This document shows positions 1-12,126 of a DNA stretch of 64,000 bases, one piece after another. The DNA is from Alphaproteobacteria bacterium (GTDB taxonomy: Bacteria; Pseudomonadota; Alphaproteobacteria; Sphingomonadales; Sphingomonadaceae). The DNA lies in assembly GCA_019239415.1 (NCBI GenBank), contig JAFAZW010000038.1:1-64000 (forward strand), written 5' to 3'. The notes below the pieces were generated by a model. It saw only the letters and a list, made by a program, of their open reading frames with translations. It made no database searches and was not told where the DNA came from. Both the position numbers and the translations under genes were made by a program. Positions within the stretch are counted from its first letter, which is position 1. Each line of letters opens with the position of its first letter.

Positions 1-912
1 CAGGAAATTTCCCATCTCGTTGCATTCGAGGAATATCCACTGGCCGTCGCTGTCTACGATGAAATCGAAACAGGCGAAGACGATCCTGAGGCGGCGGCAG
101 AACCAACGGCAAAGTGCGCTCACCCCGTCCGGAATGGAGATTTCTTCGCAGCCGAGCATGGCGGTCCTTGGAGCATTTCGCCAGTCCAGCGACGTTACGT
201 CGGACGCCTGCGAGTCGAGCCGGATCGCGAACATGCTGCTTCCGATCGTGGTGATCCGCACCTCGAAGCTTTTGCGGACGCGCAATTGGTAGATGGCAGG
301 ACAGAGGGAAACGTCCGCCGAGTCGACAATCTCCTCATCGACGACCTCGGTGGATACGGCGAGCGCGGCTCCATCCTGGGCGAGCCAGTTCATCGGGAGA
401 ATCGGCTTGCATATCGTTTCGTCACCGCACGCGGCATGGGATCGAATGAAGTCGACAACTTCGTCTCGCGAGCTGGAGACGAGCGTCTTCGGGATCTGGA
501 AGCCGGCTTCCACAGCGATCTTCAGCTGGAATGCCTTGTTATCGACGAGAAGATACGAGGACGGAGGATTGACGCAGAGCGGAGTTGCGCTTTCCAGATG
601 CAGATGCATCGCATCCCTGACCTCGCGCCACGCAGCCTGCGCGTATTTTCTGTCGGCGGGATGGCTGCCGCTGGGCAGAACCATCGCGCCGGAGCGGCGG
701 AACCAGATCGAGTCGTACCCGCTCAGCCTGAGATCGGAGCCGCCCCGGCCGAAGCGCCACTCTTCGGAGACGCCGGGCTCGAATGAGAGCGACTCCCGCT
801 GCGGGATATCGGTGAGGAAGACGACGCAATTCTCGACGCCGAGTTCAGTCAGCCCCCACCGGACCGCGGCGGCGTGGGTGTCACCCGGCACCGAGAAGGT
901 GAGGATTTTCAA
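1..912 (-). CDS. MvdC/MvdD-like ATP-grasp RiPP maturase (3' end cut by window edge)
   Basis: Reverse-strand frame open from position 1 to a TTG at 912: (M)KILTFSVPGDTHAAAVRWGLTELGVENCVVFLTDIPQ... to ...DFIVDSDGQWIFLECNEMGNFL; parallels the second copy at 23691-24821 (IWFRR and FLExNEMGN motifs). Missing from the ORF track because no stop lies in the window. Confidence 0.75.
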   Translation of the reverse strand, partial: MKILTFSVPGDTHAAAVRWGLTELGVENCVVFLTDIPQRESLSFEPGVSEEWRFGRGGSDLRLSGYDSIWFRRSGAMVLPSGSHPADRKYAQAAWREVRDAMHLHLESATPLCVNPPSSYLLVDNKAFQLKIAVEAGFQIPKTLVSSSRDEVVDFIRSHAACGDETICKPILPMNWLAQDGAALAVSTEVVDEEIVDSADVSLCPAIYQLRVRKSFEVRITTIGSSMFAIRLDSQASDVTSLDWRNAPRTAMLGCEEISIPDGVSALCRWFCRRLRIVFACFDFIVDSDGQWIFLECNEMGNFL

Positions 913-966
913 GTCAGCCAAAAAAAGGGCGGGCAACATATGTGCCCGCCCGACCAATTTCAGAAG

Positions 967-1149
967 TCACTCGCCGCCCATGGTCCGCGGGTCGGGCTGC
1001 TTTTCCCAGTCCCCCTGAGGACTGACGTTAGTACGAACCGCCGTGTCGATAGGCGGACCAGGATTTCCGTCATCGCCGCCAGCAACGCACTCGATCTCGG
1101 CTTCGGTGAGAGGCCGGGCAAGTCTGCGACCGATGATTCTGTCTTTCAT
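967..1149 (-). CDS. Putative RiPP precursor peptide A (60 aa)
   Basis: MKDRIIGRRLARPLTEAEIECVAGGDDGNPGPPIDTAVRTNVSPQGDWEKQPDPRTMGGE; GGAG ribosome site upstream; directly 5' of the ATP-grasp; shares leader with peptide B. Confidence 0.65.
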   Translation of the reverse strand: MKDRIIGRRLARPLTEAEIECVAGGDDGNPGPPIDTAVRTNVSPQGDWEKQPDPRTMGGE

Positions 1150-1359
1150 CACCATCTCCACGCTGAGGTGCGCTCGAACGCGCTCAGAAAAAATTGCACA
1201 GTTGCGGAACGCACGCAACGGCGATTCATCGGGGCCGCGAGACCGACAACTATATCGCTCATGCTGGGGTCGACTCGACGAATTGCGCCTAATTGGTTTT
1301 GCAGTCTTTAGCTTTTCCGGTGGAGGCAGCCCCAGCGTTATTGGCGAGAGGTGGTCGCG

Positions 1360-2586
1360 CTAACCCGGCACTCCGCTTTCTATCGATCCGATCAACAGCG
1401 TCTCGACGGTCTCGCCCGCGGCGGCGGCGGGCGCGTGGGGCAGGCGCCGTACCAGGGCGTTGGCCGCGGCGAGCGGCGCCTGGAGGCTGCTGTCGAGGCG
1501 AGCATCGGGCGCGACCCAGAGGTGGCCGTCGCGGTCGGCGCCGAGGCGGGCGCGCCAATAGACTTCGCGGCTGCCGCCTTCGGGCAACGCGGCGGTCAGC
1601 GCGGCGAAGAGCGGCGGCTCGGCGCCGGTCCGGCCAAGCAGGGCGAAGAGGAGGGGCTTCAGCAGCAGGTGGGCGCAGACGAAGGCGGAGGCCGGGTTGC
1701 CGGGCAGACCCAGGACCAGCCGCCGATCCGCGAAGCGCGCGTGCCAGCAGGGCTTGCCGGGCTGCACGGCGATCCGTTCGAAGACGGTGCGCGCGCCGAG
1801 CGACCGGATCAGCGGGCGCAGCACGTCGCGGTCCCCGACCGAAGCGCCGCCGAGGGGGACGATGATGTCGGAGGTCAGATCGGCCGCCCGGAGCGCTTCC
1901 TCGCACCGCCTGAAGTCGTCGGGCAGGATCGGGTGGAGGACCGGCTCGCCTCCCCAGCCGGCGATGAGCTCGGCCAGTGCATAGCCGGCGGAGTTGACGA
2001 TGCAGCCGCTCCGGAGCGGCGAGCCCGGCTCGCGCAGCTCGTCGCCGGAAGGGAGGACGGCGACCCGCGGGCGCCTGCGAACCGCGAGCATGTCCAGGTT
2101 GGCGGCGGCGGCGAGCCCGAGGCGCGCGGGGGTGAGGACCTGGCCGGCGCGGATCAGGATCTCGCCCCGGCGGAAATCGCCGCCGGCGGGACGGACGAAG
2201 CTCGCCGGTCCGGGCTCGCCGAGGATCCGGATCCGCTCGCCTTGCGCCTCGACGATTTCCTGGACGACGATGCGTTCCGCACCGTTCGGGACGACGCCCC
2301 CGGTCGCGATCCTGACCGCCGTGCCGGCCGTCACAATGCCCCCGAACGGCGCACCCGCGGGCGCTTCGCCGATGACGGTGAGGGCGGCACCGCTGCGCGC
2401 GTCTTGTGCTCGGACCGCGTAGCCGTCCATGGCGGATACGGGCCACGGCGGCTGGTCGCGTGCGGCGACGACGTCTGCGGCGGCGGTGCGGCGGCCGCAG
2501 TGCCCGATCGGCCGGGTCTCGGGCTCGACGGGAGACAGGTCGGCGAGCAGCAGCGCCCGGGCCTCGTCCAGCGGGAGCGGGGTCAT
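1360..2586 (-). CDS. moeA: Molybdopterin molybdenumtransferase MoeA
   Basis: [14 protein letters not shown]...[10 protein letters not shown]...[10 protein letters not shown]; in moco operon. Confidence 0.92.
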
Positions 2587-3071
2587 TCGTCCCGCCGCCA
2601 GTCGCCCGACTTGCCGCCTTTCTTCTCGCTCAGCGCGATGTCGCCGATGCTCATGCCGCGATCGACCGATTTCAACATGTCGTAGAGCGTGAGGCAGGCG
2701 ACCGAGACGGCCGTCAGCGCTTCCATCTCGACTCCCGTCCGGCCGACGGTCTTCGCCTCGGCGGTGACGGTGAAGCCGGGGCGATTCCTGTCGGGGACGA
2801 CCGCGACGACCACCGACGTCAGCGGCAGCGGGTGACAGAGGGGAATGAGGTCCCCCACCTTCTTCGCGGCCATTATGCCGGCCAGCTCCGCAATCCGGGC
2901 GACGTCGCCCTTTGGGCCCTCTCCGCGGAGCGCGCGGTCCAGCGTCGACGGCATCATGCCGACCCGGCCGCGTGCCACGGCCGAGCGCACGGTTTCCGCC
3001 TTGGCCGAGACGTCGACCATGTGCGGGCGGCCGGATTCGTCGAAATGGCTGAGCTCGTCCGCCATCGTCAT
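2583..3071 (-). CDS. moaC: Cyclic pyranopterin monophosphate synthase MoaC
   Basis: [14 protein letters not shown]...[10 protein letters not shown]...[25 protein letters not shown]. Confidence 0.95.
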
Positions 3072-3589
3072 TCCTCGAGCCGCGGCATGATCTCGACCAG
3101 GTTGCACGGCCGGGTCCGCGCGTCGAGCTGCGGAGCGATGACCTGCTCCCATCCGTCCCGCACCGCTCCGCCGGAGCCGGGGAGGCAGAAGACGAAGGTG
3201 CCGCGGGCGACGCCGGCGCAGGCCCGGGACTGGATCGTCGACAGCCCCACCGACCGGAAGCTGACATTGTGGAAGACGACCGCGAACCCTTCGATGACCT
3301 TGTCGAACAGCGGCGCCACCGCCTCCACAGTGACGTCCCTGCCGGTGAGGCCGGTGCCGCCGGTGGTGATGACGACGTCCACCTGCGGGTCCCCGATCCA
3401 GGCGCCCACCGCAGAGCGTATCGCCTCGACATCGTCCGGAACGATCGCGCGCCCCGCGAGGCGATGGCCCGCCGTCGAGATCGCCGCCGCCAGGTAGGCG
3501 CCGGACGTGTCGGTCTCCTCGGTGCGGGTGTCGGACACGGTCAGCACCGCGACCCGGACCGGAACGAAGCCGCTCGCGGTCACGCCCAC
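3068..3589 (-). CDS. moaB: Molybdenum cofactor biosynthesis protein B
   Basis: [16 protein letters not shown]...[13 protein letters not shown]...[13 protein letters not shown]. Confidence 0.93.
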
Positions 3590-4026
3590 CTCGCCCTGTC
3601 GTCATGGTCGACGGCGCGCGCCTCGATCCACCGCGAGCCGTTCGGCCCATGCTCGCGCTTCCAGAAGGGCGCTTCGGTCTTGAGCCGGTCCATCATGTAG
3701 TCGACAGCCTCGAATGCCGCGCGCCGGTGCGCCGCCGCTGCCGCGACGAACACGATCGCCTCGCCGGGCGCGAGCGTGCCGGTCCGGTGGACGATGACGT
3801 ATCCGATGAGGCCGAAGCGGCCGTGCGCCTCCGCGCCGATCGCGGCGACGCTGCGTTCCGTCAGGGGGGGGTAATGTTCCAGCTCCAGCGTGGCTATCTC
3901 GCCGCCATCGCTGTCGCCCCGGACCAGGCCGAGAAAGGAGGCGACGCCCCCGGCGCCGCCGACGCGGCCGGCGAAGGCCGCGAGCTCGGCGGCGGGGTCG
4001 AACGGCGCGGCCTGGACGCGGATCAT
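3580..4026 (-). CDS. moaE: Molybdopterin synthase catalytic subunit MoaE
   Basis: [27 protein letters not shown]...[32 protein letters not shown]. Confidence 0.92.
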
Positions 4027-4262
4027 CCGCCGCTCACGGGCGGGAGGAAGGCGATCTCGTCGCCGTCGTCGAGCGGGGTCTGCCGCGGATGCAGCTCGGC
4101 ATTGACCGCGATCCTGACCGAAGGTTCGCGCAGGGCCGGATGCTCCGCGGCGAGCCAGTCGCGCAGGCGTTCCGTGTCCCGCACGCCTGCCGGCAGCGTC
4201 ACGGTGAGCGCACCGGCGCCGACGGACTCGCGCAGCCGTCCGAGGAACAGGATCGTCGCCAT
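4023..4262 (-). CDS. moaD: Molybdopterin synthase sulfur carrier MoaD
   Basis: ATILFLGRLRE...LPPVSGG C-terminal GG, between moaE and moaA. Confidence 0.9.
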   Translation of the reverse strand: MATILFLGRLRESVGAGALTVTLPAGVRDTERLRDWLAAEHPALREPSVRIAVNAELHPRQTPLDDGDEIAFLPPVSGG

Positions 4263-5245
4263 CAGCCGCCGGTCACGGACATGTGCCGTTCGACCGCCGG
4301 CGGCCGTCGGGCGCCGATCGCGAAATCATGGCCCTGCGGCTTGCGGCCGATCGCCGCGTCGATGGCGGCATCGAGCAGGACGTCGTCCGCCGAGGCGCGC
4401 AGCGGCGTGCCCAGATCGGCCTTCGCCGGCTGGCCGAGGCACAGATACAGTTCGCCGGTACAGGTCACCCGCACCCGGTTGCAGCCGTCGCAGAAATTGC
4501 GGCTGAGCGGCGCGATGAAGCCGATCGTGCCGCCTTCGTCGGTGCGCACGTAGCGCGCCGGCCCGCCGGTGCGGCGGGCGAGGTCGGTGAGGGCCCAGCG
4601 GCGCTCGAAGCGGGCGCGGACCTCGCCCAGCGGCACGAACTGGTCGACGCGGTCCGCCTCGACCGAACCCATCGGCATCACCTCGATGACGGTGAGGTCG
4701 GCGCCGCGCGCATCGGCCCATTCCGCGAGGGCGACGAGATCGTCGAGATTGTCGGAGCGAAGCGCGACGGCGTTGATCTTGACGGCGAGGCCGGCGGCGA
4801 GCGCCGCGTCGACGCCGGCAATGGCCTCCTCGACCCGACCGCCGCGGGTGATCCGCGCGTAGGTCGCGGCATCGAGGCTGTCGAGCGAGACGTTGACGCG
4901 GCGGACCCCGCAGCGCGCGAGATCGGCCGCGTGGCGCGCCAGTCGCGTGCCGTTGGTCGTCAGGGTCAGCTCGTCGAGGTCGCCGCTGCGCAGGAAGCGC
5001 GACAGGCCGGCCACGAGCTCCATGAAATCCCGCCGGACCAGCGGCTCCCCGCCGGTCAGCCTGAGCTTGCGCACGCCTTTGCGGATGAAGGCGGCGGCGA
5101 GGCGGTCGAGCTCGGCGAGCGAGAGCAGGTCGGCGCGCGGCAGGAAGGACATCCGCTCCGGCATGCAATAGGTGCAGCGCAGGTCGCAGCGGTCGGTCAC
5201 CGACAGCCGCAAATAGCTGATTGTCCGTCCAAACGGGTCGATCAC
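4262..5245 (-). CDS. moaA: GTP 3',8-cyclase MoaA (radical SAM), GTG start
   Basis: [30 protein letters not shown]...[11 protein letters not shown]...[10 protein letters not shown]. Confidence 0.93.
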
Positions 5246-8265: not shown

Positions 8266-9654
8266 ATGAGCGAGTTCGAGCGGCAGGATGCGGCATACTC
8301 AAGCCAGTCCATCGCGGCCGGACCTGGGCCCGACAGCCTGCTCGAGCGGCGTTTCGAGCTCAGCGCCAGGGGCACCACGCTGCGCGCCGAGATCCTCGCG
8401 GGCGTCACGACCTTCCTGACCATGGCCTATATCGTGCTGGTCAACCCGGCCATCCTCGGCCAGGCGGGGATGCCGGTGGCGGCGGTCGCGGCGGCGACGT
8501 GCCTCGCCGCCGGCTTCGCCTCGATCCTGATGGGGCTCAACGCCAACGTTCCGCTCGCGCTGGCGCCCGGCATGGGGCTCAACGCCTATTTCAGCTTCAC
8601 CGTCGTCCAGGCGATGCATGTGCCGTGGCCGGTCGCTTTGGGCTGCGTCTTCGTCTCCGGCGTCGCATTCCTGCTCCTGACCTTCGCCGGCGTGCGCCAG
8701 CTCATCGTCGCCGCGATCCCGCCGCACCTGTTCGCCGCCGTCGCCGGCGGGATCGGCCTGTTCATCGCCCTCATCGGCCTCAAGAATGCCGGAATCGTCG
8801 CCACCAGCCCCGCGACCTCGGTGACGCTCGGCGACCTCCACGCCCCGGGAGCCGGTCTGGCCCTGTTCGGACTCCTGGTGACGGCGGCGCTCACCGCGTG
8901 GCGGGTGCGCGGCGCCATCCTGATCGGCATCGTCGCGACGAGCCTCGCCGGCTGGGCGCTCGGCGTCGTCGCCTTCAAGCCGCAGCCCTACGACCTCAGC
9001 GCAATCGCGCAGACCGCCTTCCATCTCGACCTCGCCGGCGTGTTCGGCCTGTCGGGAGGCCGCGGCCTCGGCCTGTTCGAGATCCTCTTCGTGTTCCTGT
9101 TCGTCGACCTGTTCGACAATATCGGCACCCTGGTCGGCGTCACGCGCCGCGCCGGCCTGATCGCCGGGGACGGGCGGATCCCGAAGCTCAACCGGATCCT
9201 CCTGACCGACTCCATCGCGACCATCTTCGGCAGCCTCGCCGGAACCAGCACCGTCACCTCCTATGTGGAGAGCGCCGCCGGCGTCCAGGCGGGCGGCCGC
9301 ACCGGCCTCACCGCGATCGTCACCGGTTTCCTGTTCCTGGCGGCGATGTTCGCGGCCCCCTACGCCCAGCTCGTGCCCCTCGCCGCGACGGCGCCCGCGC
9401 TGATCCTCGTCGGCGCGCTGATGATGGCCCCATTGGCCGACATCGCCTGGGACGATCCCGAGATCGCCATTCCGGCCTTCCTCACCCTGGCGCTGATCCC
9501 GCTCACCTTTTCGATCGCCAACGGCCTCGCCTTCGGGATCACCGCCTACGCCCTTCTGAAGCTTGTGCGGGGGAAGATTTCACGACGCGATTGGCTGCTG
9601 CTGGCGCTTTCGACCTTGTTCGTCGCGCGCTTCGTCTGGCTGTCGGCGGGGTAA
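8266..9654 (+). CDS. NCS2 family (AzgA-like) purine permease
   Basis: [33 protein letters not shown]...[11 protein letters not shown]. Confidence 0.92.
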
Positions 9655-9698
9655 GGTAGAGGCGTGGCCTGGTGTCGGAGGCCGACACGTCGGCGCCG

Positions 9699-11036
9699 TC
9701 AGGGCGACGCCTTGTCGGGGCCGAGGAGGCCTCTGAACTTGCCGGCCCGGTCGAGCTCGATCGCGACGAGCAAGGTCCGATCGGGGTAGACGAGCGTGAA
9801 CTCGTCGAAGCCGAACCCATCGGGGCGTCGAAAGTGGATGGCCTGCGGATCGCCGAGCGGCTGCAGGCGGCGGTGCGCGGCCGCAAAGGCTGCGCGGCCG
9901 GGCTCCCCCGTGTCCGCTGCCAGCAAAGTGTAATCGGGCTCAGGTGCGGCCCGGCCGGCGAGGAGGCGGCGCAGCATCGCCTTCGAGCCCTTGAGCGGCA
10001 CGGTGCGCGGCGTGAATTTCGGGGCGGGAGATGCCGCTTCGATCGTAGCGGCGGCGGGCGATCGGCCGAGGCGGCGCAGCGCAGCGGCGAGCGCATCCGC
10101 GTCGGGCACCGCGATATCGGGCTGCACCCCGCGGCCCTCCCAGTTGGATCCGGTAACGGGGCTCTCCGCGCGACCTGTCGGAATGAGGGCCATGACATTG
10201 TGTCCGACCGCAACAGCCTGCCCCGGGTTCGCGCCGCCACCGGTCGTCTCGCCGACGAGGGTGCCGAGCTTCAGCGTCTGAATGTCGTAGGCGAGCTCCT
10301 CGCCGCCCGAAAAGGTGTGGCCGCCGATGAGAACATAAACGGGCAGGCCGGCGAAGCTGACCGGGGTCGGCTCGCTGAAGAACGCCTTGCGCGTGACGTC
10401 GGTCGTCCCCGCCTTGCGCCAGACGATACGATTGATTTCGATCCGCTTGCCAGCAGGCAGGAGATAGCTGACCAGGTAGCTCACCGCTGCCGGATCGCCG
10501 CCGTGATTGCCGCGCACGTCGAGGATCAGAGCACGACTGCCCTTCAGTCCCGCCATGGCGCGGTCGAGCGCAGGTTTGAACGCCCAGGGATTGGCGAAGC
10601 CGGCGATTTCCAGATAGGCGATCCCGCCCGCAAGCCTGCCCGCCCGGATAATTCCAGCCTCGTCCGGCGGAATCGACGCGATGCTCAGGCCCGGCCCGTC
10701 CCTTGCAACGAACACCGCGAGATGCCCGTCGTGGAGGACGCCGTGGAGGTCGTCGGTCAGCCGACGGGCGAAGGACGGCAGGTCGGTGAACCGATCGTAG
10801 GCGCCCGCGGCAGCGGCGGCGGTGATCGCGGCGGCACCCTTCTCGCCGAGGTCCGGGTAGACGTATCGGTTGCGCAACTCGGTCGCCAATTGGGTCACGA
10901 TCGCTTTGCGGGCGGCCGGGTCGAGCGCGGCCGATGGGACCGACGAAGCGCTCGGCGCGGAGGTTTGCGCAATCGTCGGCGCGGCAACCGTGGCGAAGAG
11001 CAAGGAGACGAACACCGCGGTGGGCCGAAAACGCAT
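9699..11036 (-). CDS. S41 family peptidase, secreted
   Basis: Signal peptide, GSRALILDVRGNHGGDPAAVSYL and GHTFSGGEELAYDIQTLK motifs. Confidence 0.85.
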   Translation of the reverse strand: MRFRPTAVFVSLLFATVAAPTIAQTSAPSASSVPSAALDPAARKAIVTQLATELRNRYVYPDLGEKGAAAITAAAAAGAYDRFTDLPSFARRLTDDLHGVLHDGHLAVFVARDGPGLSIASIPPDEAGIIRAGRLAGGIAYLEIAGFANPWAFKPALDRAMAGLKGSRALILDVRGNHGGDPAAVSYLVSYLLPAGKRIEINRIVWRKAGTTDVTRKAFFSEPTPVSFAGLPVYVLIGGHTFSGGEELAYDIQTLKLGTLVGETTGGGANPGQAVAVGHNVMALIPTGRAESPVTGSNWEGRGVQPDIAVPDADALAAALRRLGRSPAAATIEAASPAPKFTPRTVPLKGSKAMLRRLLAGRAAPEPDYTLLAADTGEPGRAAFAAAHRRLQPLGDPQAIHFRRPDGFGFDEFTLVYPDRTLLVAIELDRAGKFRGLLGPDKASP

Positions 11037-11170
11037 CGATTTGTCCTCAGCGACCGGGGTTCAGACTTGTGCAACACAGTGCCGCATGCGCTATCCTGGT
11101 GCAAGAACCGCCAAGCGGACGAGGCCGACGGCCACCCTGAACGCACGGCGCCTGGGGGGATCCGCGCCGA

Positions 11171-11347
11171 TCACCGGCCCTGGCCCCGATCGCGCTCACC
11201 TTCTCGATCGCCCAACGGCTTGGCGTTCGGCATCACCGCCCACGCCCTTCTGAAGCCGTGCGCGGGAAGATTTCGGGGAGCGACTGGCTGCTGCTGGCTC
11301 TGTCGGCCCTGTTCGTCGCGCGCTTCGCGTGGCTGTCGAAGGGGTGA
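11171..11347 (+). pseudogene. Diverged, frameshifted 3' fragment of the NCS2 permease gene
   Basis: ATCGCGCTCACCTTCTCGATCGCC..GGCGTTCGGCATCACCGCC..GCCCTTCTGAAG..TGGCTGCTGCTGGC..GTTCGTCGCGCGCTTCG parallels 9497-9654. Confidence 0.8.
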
Positions 11348-11361
11348 GGGCTCGCCCTGGA

Positions 11362-12126
11362 TCAGCTCTCTGTATAGCGGAGAAGGAGCCACTCGCGGCC
11401 CGCGATCAGGCGGGCGAGCTCAGCGGCCGCGCCGGGCGGCGCCCCCCGATAGAAACGGGCGAGCTCGGCCGCGAGATCGCGGGCCATGGCCTCCTCCAAT
11501 GCCTCACAGCGGCGGAACCCGAGGAAGCGTGAGCCGATCCCGAACAGGGTGAGGCCGTAGGCCGACTCGAGGTGGCGGGCCAGAGCGAGGTTCTGCATCG
11601 GGTTGAGGTCCGCGCTGAAATAGCCGTTGGGGAAGGCGGCGATGGCTTCGGCGGGCGATGAGACCGGCACGAATTGGAAGATCACCTCCCCATCCTCGGC
11701 GATCCGCAAGGCCCGGTCCGGATCCCGGTTGACCGTGAGGAGGTCGTTCGAGTCCCCGGGCGTGGCCCAGTCCAGCAAGCCGGCGACGTCTCGCACGTCG
11801 ACCGCCTCGGCGCGTTTGAGGAGATTGGTCAAGCGGACCGGAAATTCGGTCGGCTGCTCCTCATCGAGACCCTCGACATCGTCCAGGCCGTAATGATCCG
11901 TGCCGTGTCCAGAAGTGTAGCAGGCCTGGCCGAGGTCATCGAGCGACGCCAGGATGCATTGGTGCGGCCGCTCCCGCTGAAGGCGGGCGTGGAGATCCAG
12001 CAGGTCGGCGAAGCAGGGGATGCTGCGCGCCGTCACGCCGTCGCAAAGCAATTCATTGAAGGTGAGCGGCTTCGCCTCGGCGAACGGGATCAGCCGGACC
12101 GGCCGTGCCCGTCTGAATCCGATCAT
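11362..12126 (-). CDS. Hypothetical protein (254 aa)
   Basis: Long ORF with coherent protein sequence; family not recognised. Confidence 0.7.
   Translation of the reverse strand: MIGFRRARPVRLIPFAEAKPLTFNELLCDGVTARSIPCFADLLDLHARLQRERPHQCILASLDDLGQACYTSGHGTDHYGLDDVEGLDEEQPTEFPVRLTNLLKRAEAVDVRDVAGLLDWATPGDSNDLLTVNRDPDRALRIAEDGEVIFQFVPVSSPAEAIAAFPNGYFSADLNPMQNLALARHLESAYGLTLFGIGSRFLGFRRCEALEEAMARDLAAELARFYRGAPPGAAAELARLIAGREWLLLRYTES

Follow-up and report, generated by a model that had tools for sequence, protein, structure and literature searches.

A predicted graspetide operon interrupted by a contig end in a sphingomonad genome assembly

Known graspetide systems and the locus at the contig end

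The graspetides (omega-ester peptides) are a well-known class with more than 20,000 predicted members, and their synthetases phosphorylate Asp/Glu residues of a core peptide and link them to Ser/Thr as esters or to Lys as an amide (PMC13097080). The locus described here, module 1, was compared with the systems nearest to it. The closest solved relatives of its ATP-grasp enzyme, synthetase 1, are MdnC, MdnB, AMdnB, and CdnC of the microviridin/chryseoviridin systems (group 1), with which it has the catalytic motifs in common. However, the leader of module 1 is of the GG type and not PFFARFL, and neither TxKxPSD nor TTxxxxEE was found on inspection of the translated core. Membership of the microviridin (group 1) and plesiocin (group 2) types was thus excluded, and the assignment to the graspetide class was unaffected. 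The best family model, TIGR04187 (GRASP_SAV_5884 ATP-grasp ribosomal peptide maturases), describes systems that likewise have the precursor gene directly upstream, but module 1 scored below its cut-off, has another leader and core, and belongs to an Alphaproteobacterium, not an actinomycete. Proteobacterial and myxobacterial loci with RILGRxLAxEL...VAGG leaders (Enhygromyxa, Nitrosomonas, and uncultured organisms) have the leader motif in common with module 1 and mostly the same order of precursor and ATP-grasp; their enzymes are 31-37% identical, whereas their cores and downstream genes differ. The clusters with DUF6624 or unannotated partners (groups 18, 20, 23, and 42) resemble another locus of the host, on contig C48, but module 1 has a different exported protein.

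The window, that is, the whole stretch of 64,000 nucleotides that was analyzed, begins at the terminus of the 78,184-bp contig C88, part of a sphingomonad genome assembly of 3.49 Mb in 103 contigs. Module 1 lies across this contig end and was found to consist of the following features.

Positions 967..1149 (stop included), minus strand: precursor peptide 1, 60 aa, an ORF recovered by the leave-out leader profile
Positions 927..951, minus strand: terminator-like hairpin GGGCGGGC-ACATATGTT-GCCCGCCC followed by T7, between the precursor stop and the ATP-grasp start
Positions 1..912, minus strand: residues 1-304 of graspetide synthetase 1 (ATP-grasp), from TIGR04187 and PDB matches
Contig C74, positions 4-216, plus strand: residues 305-374 of synthetase 1 and its stop codon, from the tail match and an in-frame 3-bp overlap
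Contig C74, positions 222-890, plus strand: third gene, a 222-aa exported protein, starting 5 bp past the enzyme stop

Module 1 is a new addition to an already well-known class, and its core chemistry is unpredicted. We assign a probability of about 0.88 to the reading that it is a small, probably horizontally acquired graspetide operon working by the mechanism proposed below. The gene order, the intact enzyme over the contig gap, the family membership of enzyme and leader, and the kinship with a second module of the window are directly supported.

Synthetase 1 and its continuation on contig C74

The ATP-grasp gene runs off the window as an open frame of 304 codons (912-1, minus strand), and the GC content by codon position in this frame (0.59/0.46/0.78) is typical of coding DNA. 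TIGR04187 matched synthetase 1 over nearly its full length (E 1.7e-49), and since the score of 169 bits is below the curated cut-off of 350 bits, synthetase 1 is a divergent member. The MvdD, MvdC, and GRASP_w_spasm models matched as well, the E-values running from 1.7e-49 for TIGR04187 to 7.5e-21 and all scores lying below the cut-offs. All six PDB sequences matched by profile are graspetide synthetases (E down to 1.7e-43), namely, MdnC, MdnB, AMdnB, CdnC, 9bou (named MvdD-like protein), and 7drm, which we take to be PsnB; 5ig9 and 5ig8 are presumably MdnC and MdnB, respectively. Family models and PDB matches alike place the enzyme among the graspetide synthetases, as an ATP-grasp ligase. With the C-terminus taken from C74, it is complete in its catalytic and metal-binding residues: along with the Lys-x-x-Glu-x-Arg-x-Thr motif (KSFEVRIT) and the metal site DFIVD...FLECN (Asp283/Glu296/Asn298), it retains both Lys residues of the nucleotide site. 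The start codon is only tentatively assigned: TTG 912, named in the original prediction, coincides with the paralogue's start in the alignment, but an in-frame ATG near 940 and a TTG at 957 also exist; the former would fall within the terminator-like hairpin.

The gene is cut by the contig end of the assembly and not by mutation. In an own-genome search, the first 127 bases of C88 had only a weak match elsewhere in the assembly, in the paralogue, and therefore the break does not lie at a repeat; the same query found no contig overlapping the start of C88. The relatives predict that the enzyme continues with W-[IVL]-E-x-x-x-P-x-x-x-L-L-D-x-F and about 60-75 further residues. The whole genome was searched with a profile of eleven C-terminal tails of relatives, from which module 1 was left out and in which the module 2 tail was included. 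The profile matched the module 2 tail, itself one of its rows, and one further place, right where contig C74 begins (C74:4-177, E 2e-16). C74 starts with CTGTGGGTGGAGGC... and the minus strand of the window ends with ...AATTTCCTG, so that the two overlap by 3 bp with the frame kept (...NEMGNF-L-WVEANNPEIPLLDCF...). The joined junction reads NEMGNFLWVEANNPEIPLLDCF, where the paralogue, synthetase 2, has NEMGNWLWIESCNPEIPLLDCF, and the joined enzyme is about 374 aa long, with an intact frame and a stop codon. Moreover, the sole synthetase lacking its end in the genome searches was that at C88:1, and the sole end lacking a start was that at C74:1. The junction is supported by sequence continuity, not by reads, and on this basis the enzyme can be taken as intact across the contig gap. 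The original prediction had placed the 3' end of the gene outside the window and had named, as the outcome that would overturn it, a truncated fragment without a C-terminus; the C-terminus was located on C74, in frame, and what had been seen as a fragment belongs to a complete operon.

Precursor, hairpin, and third gene

The 60-aa peptide noted ahead of the ATP-grasp was recovered independently of its own sequence. It comprises the leader MKDRIIGRRLARPLTEAEIECVAGG and the predicted core DDGNPGPPIDTAVRTNVSPQGDWEKQPDPRTMGGE, and a GGAG ribosome-binding site lies directly upstream, at about 1156-1159. A leader profile was made of seven leaders from other organisms, both window peptides being left out, and was searched against 911 ORF segments. 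It picked exactly the two precursors of the window (E 3.4e-9 and 8.7e-9), the next non-precursor having an E-value of 2.4. By this evidence, the ORF 1149-967 qualifies as a true precursor. The leaders of the two modules align over 25 residues with a score of 63 (best of 1000 shuffles, 41), and leader 1 also aligns with leaders of relatives in other phyla. Thus, a short precursor with a conserved leader adjoins the enzyme, and its core contains Ser, Thr, a single Lys, and Asp/Glu residues. No recognised repeat of the Ser/Thr...Asp/Glu type was found in core 1, and cores 1 and 2 gave no alignment (score 15); the number and positions of rings are therefore not predictable.

The hairpin between precursor and enzyme (951-927) has a G+C stem of 8-9 bp and a T7 tail, with a fold z-score of -3.3. 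It was the only terminator-like site in positions 1-1600, where 1.2 such sites were expected from shuffles. Stable hairpins in the gap between precursor and enzyme also occur in module 2, in the C48 locus, and in several relatives, if not in all. The hairpin of module 1 probably lowers the expression of the enzyme relative to the precursor.

In the case of the third gene, the N-terminus of the 222-aa protein is signal-peptide-like as judged by eye, and the protein had no Pfam or NCBIfam match and hence no hydrolase match. The original prediction had expected any esterase of this module beyond the window edge, but the gene found there encodes an unrelated exported protein, and the operon contains no partner gene of the esterase or alpha-beta hydrolase type such as module 2 has. 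When the module 2 esterase was used as bait against its own genome, only the esterase itself and one weak match on contig C47 were retrieved, and no esterase at a contig end. Neither a transporter nor a protease adjoins the operon. The third-gene family is represented in 21 of the 401 genomes of the bacterial family, the host included. A graspetide-specific partnership was rejected, as homologues occur in 20 other genomes and, in the 14 neighbourhoods read, none adjoins a recognised graspetide ATP-grasp. In one genome (G022, 517-4465), a Cas9-like ORF followed by short repeats lies near a homologue of the third gene.

Second module, alternative readings, and proposed biosynthesis

The window contains a second, homologous pair of precursor and ATP-grasp, as had been predicted; both modules are on the minus strand and the aligned synthetases are 39-40% identical. 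Module 2 and its flanks comprise the following features.

Positions 24915..25088, minus strand: precursor peptide 2, 57 aa, with leader MMQQSAKRVIGRHLAKELTPEEQGLVAGG (leave-out leader profile, E 8.7e-9)
Positions 23691..24821, minus strand: graspetide synthetase 2 (ATP-grasp, 376 aa; TIGR04187, E 3.1e-48)
Positions 22478..23641, minus strand: esterase with an N-terminal signal-like segment and a likely GTG start near 23641 (PF00756, E 1.1e-14)
Positions 22006..22305: left copy of a 300-bp direct repeat flanking module 2, the 3' part of a guanine deaminase gene
Positions 25277..25576: right copy of the repeat, 96% identical to the left copy

The esterase is the third gene in module 2 only, with no counterpart beside module 1 or in the loci of relatives. 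The repeats fit an insertion of module 2 via a single crossover or a similar event; a direct repeat of this kind was sought around module 1 and not found. A tRNA-Thr gene (25651-25726) adjoins the right repeat copy. The synthetase genes of both modules have 61-63% GC against about 70% in their surroundings, and no close plasmid match was found over module 1. A third graspetide locus lies on contig C48 (8075-10050), with a 65-aa precursor whose leader ends in VAGG, a 330-aa ATP-grasp, and, directly after it, an exported DUF6624 protein (E 4.9e-19); DUF6624 has been reported beside graspetide groups 18, 20, 23, and 42 (PMC13097080). The two modules do flank a moco/purine block, as originally described, but the low GC, the repeat at module 2, and the third locus elsewhere make the flanking look incidental, and the placement is best taken as the result of two separate insertions. 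The MoeA encoded at 1363-2586 shares only 40-45% identity with its best counterparts from the same genus, and the moco block may be a non-orthologous copy.

A tree built from 49 enzymes placed synthetases 1 and 2 (40% identity) as nearest neighbours with moderate support (92/65); both fell in a small group of sphingomonad enzymes (96/80), and the C48 enzyme in another clade. Synthetase matches at 1e-15 were present in only 17 of 401 family genomes. This kinship, together with the similar leaders, would suit a recent local duplication of module 2; we consider this origin improbable, because the identity is just 40%, cores and third genes are unrelated, and the 96% direct repeat around module 2 is absent at module 1. 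An ancient duplication, or independent acquisition of the two modules from one lineage, agrees better with these data.

Two further readings concern the function of module 1. It could be taken for a decayed remnant from which no product is made, as the window stops inside the ATP-grasp gene, and decay may occur in the genus: in the genus relative G004 (9054-10065, minus strand), an ATP-grasp is split into two overlapping frames, by a probable frameshift or sequencing error. This is hardly credible for module 1, given that position 1 is a contig end and no break in the gene, that the in-frame C-terminus and stop codon at the start of C74 refute it at the assembly level, and that all catalytic residues and the coding GC pattern are retained. 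The enzyme might also be a RimK-like ligase adding amino acids to a small protein, the 60-aa ORF being its substrate or irrelevant, and a weak similarity to the RimK family does exist (E 0.0012). We regard this as very unlikely, since RimK reached 18 bits against 75-169 bits for the graspetide models, every PDB match is a graspetide synthetase, and the leader is akin to those of precursors that accompany homologous synthetases in other phyla. By sequence, module 1 appears real, intact, and functional-looking, consistent with ordinary graspetide biosynthesis.

For this graspetide operon, the following mechanism is proposed. The terminator-like hairpin would stop most transcripts before the enzyme gene, giving a high precursor level. 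From what holds for the family, synthetase 1 would bind the leader RIIGRRLARPLTEAEIECVAGG and phosphorylate Asp/Glu side chains in the core, and ring closure through attack by Ser/Thr hydroxyls or the single Lys would yield one or more macrolactones (or macrolactams). The leader would then be cut after Gly-Gly, probably in trans; such cleavage is possible because the host genome has genes for five C39 (double-glycine) peptidases on other contigs, and one of these would be the likely protease. The exported third-gene protein may, more speculatively, act in export, maturation, or self-protection.

Module 1 and its companions, three loci in a single genome, add a graspetide lineage from the sphingomonads, and to our knowledge the cores of these loci fit no known pattern. 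Exported partners following the synthetase differ between operons: the esterase, the DUF6624 protein, the sphingomonad 200-aa family, and an unannotated 326-aa protein. It is conceivable, if rather doubtful, that the exported partners are interchangeable modules, each acting outside the cytoplasm to process or neutralise the ring-closed peptide; an esterase could, for instance, open the ester rings, a logic comparable to that of the lasso peptide isopeptidases. Two tandem ATP-grasp-like ORFs on contig C11 (8848-10487, minus strand) are weakly similar to the graspetide enzymes and were set aside, no GG precursor being recognised there. In Sphingosinicella sp. LHD-64, which belongs to the same GTDB genus as the host genome, a related ATP-grasp (9011-11445, minus strand) is preceded by a short ORF without a GG leader and followed by the exported 326-aa protein.
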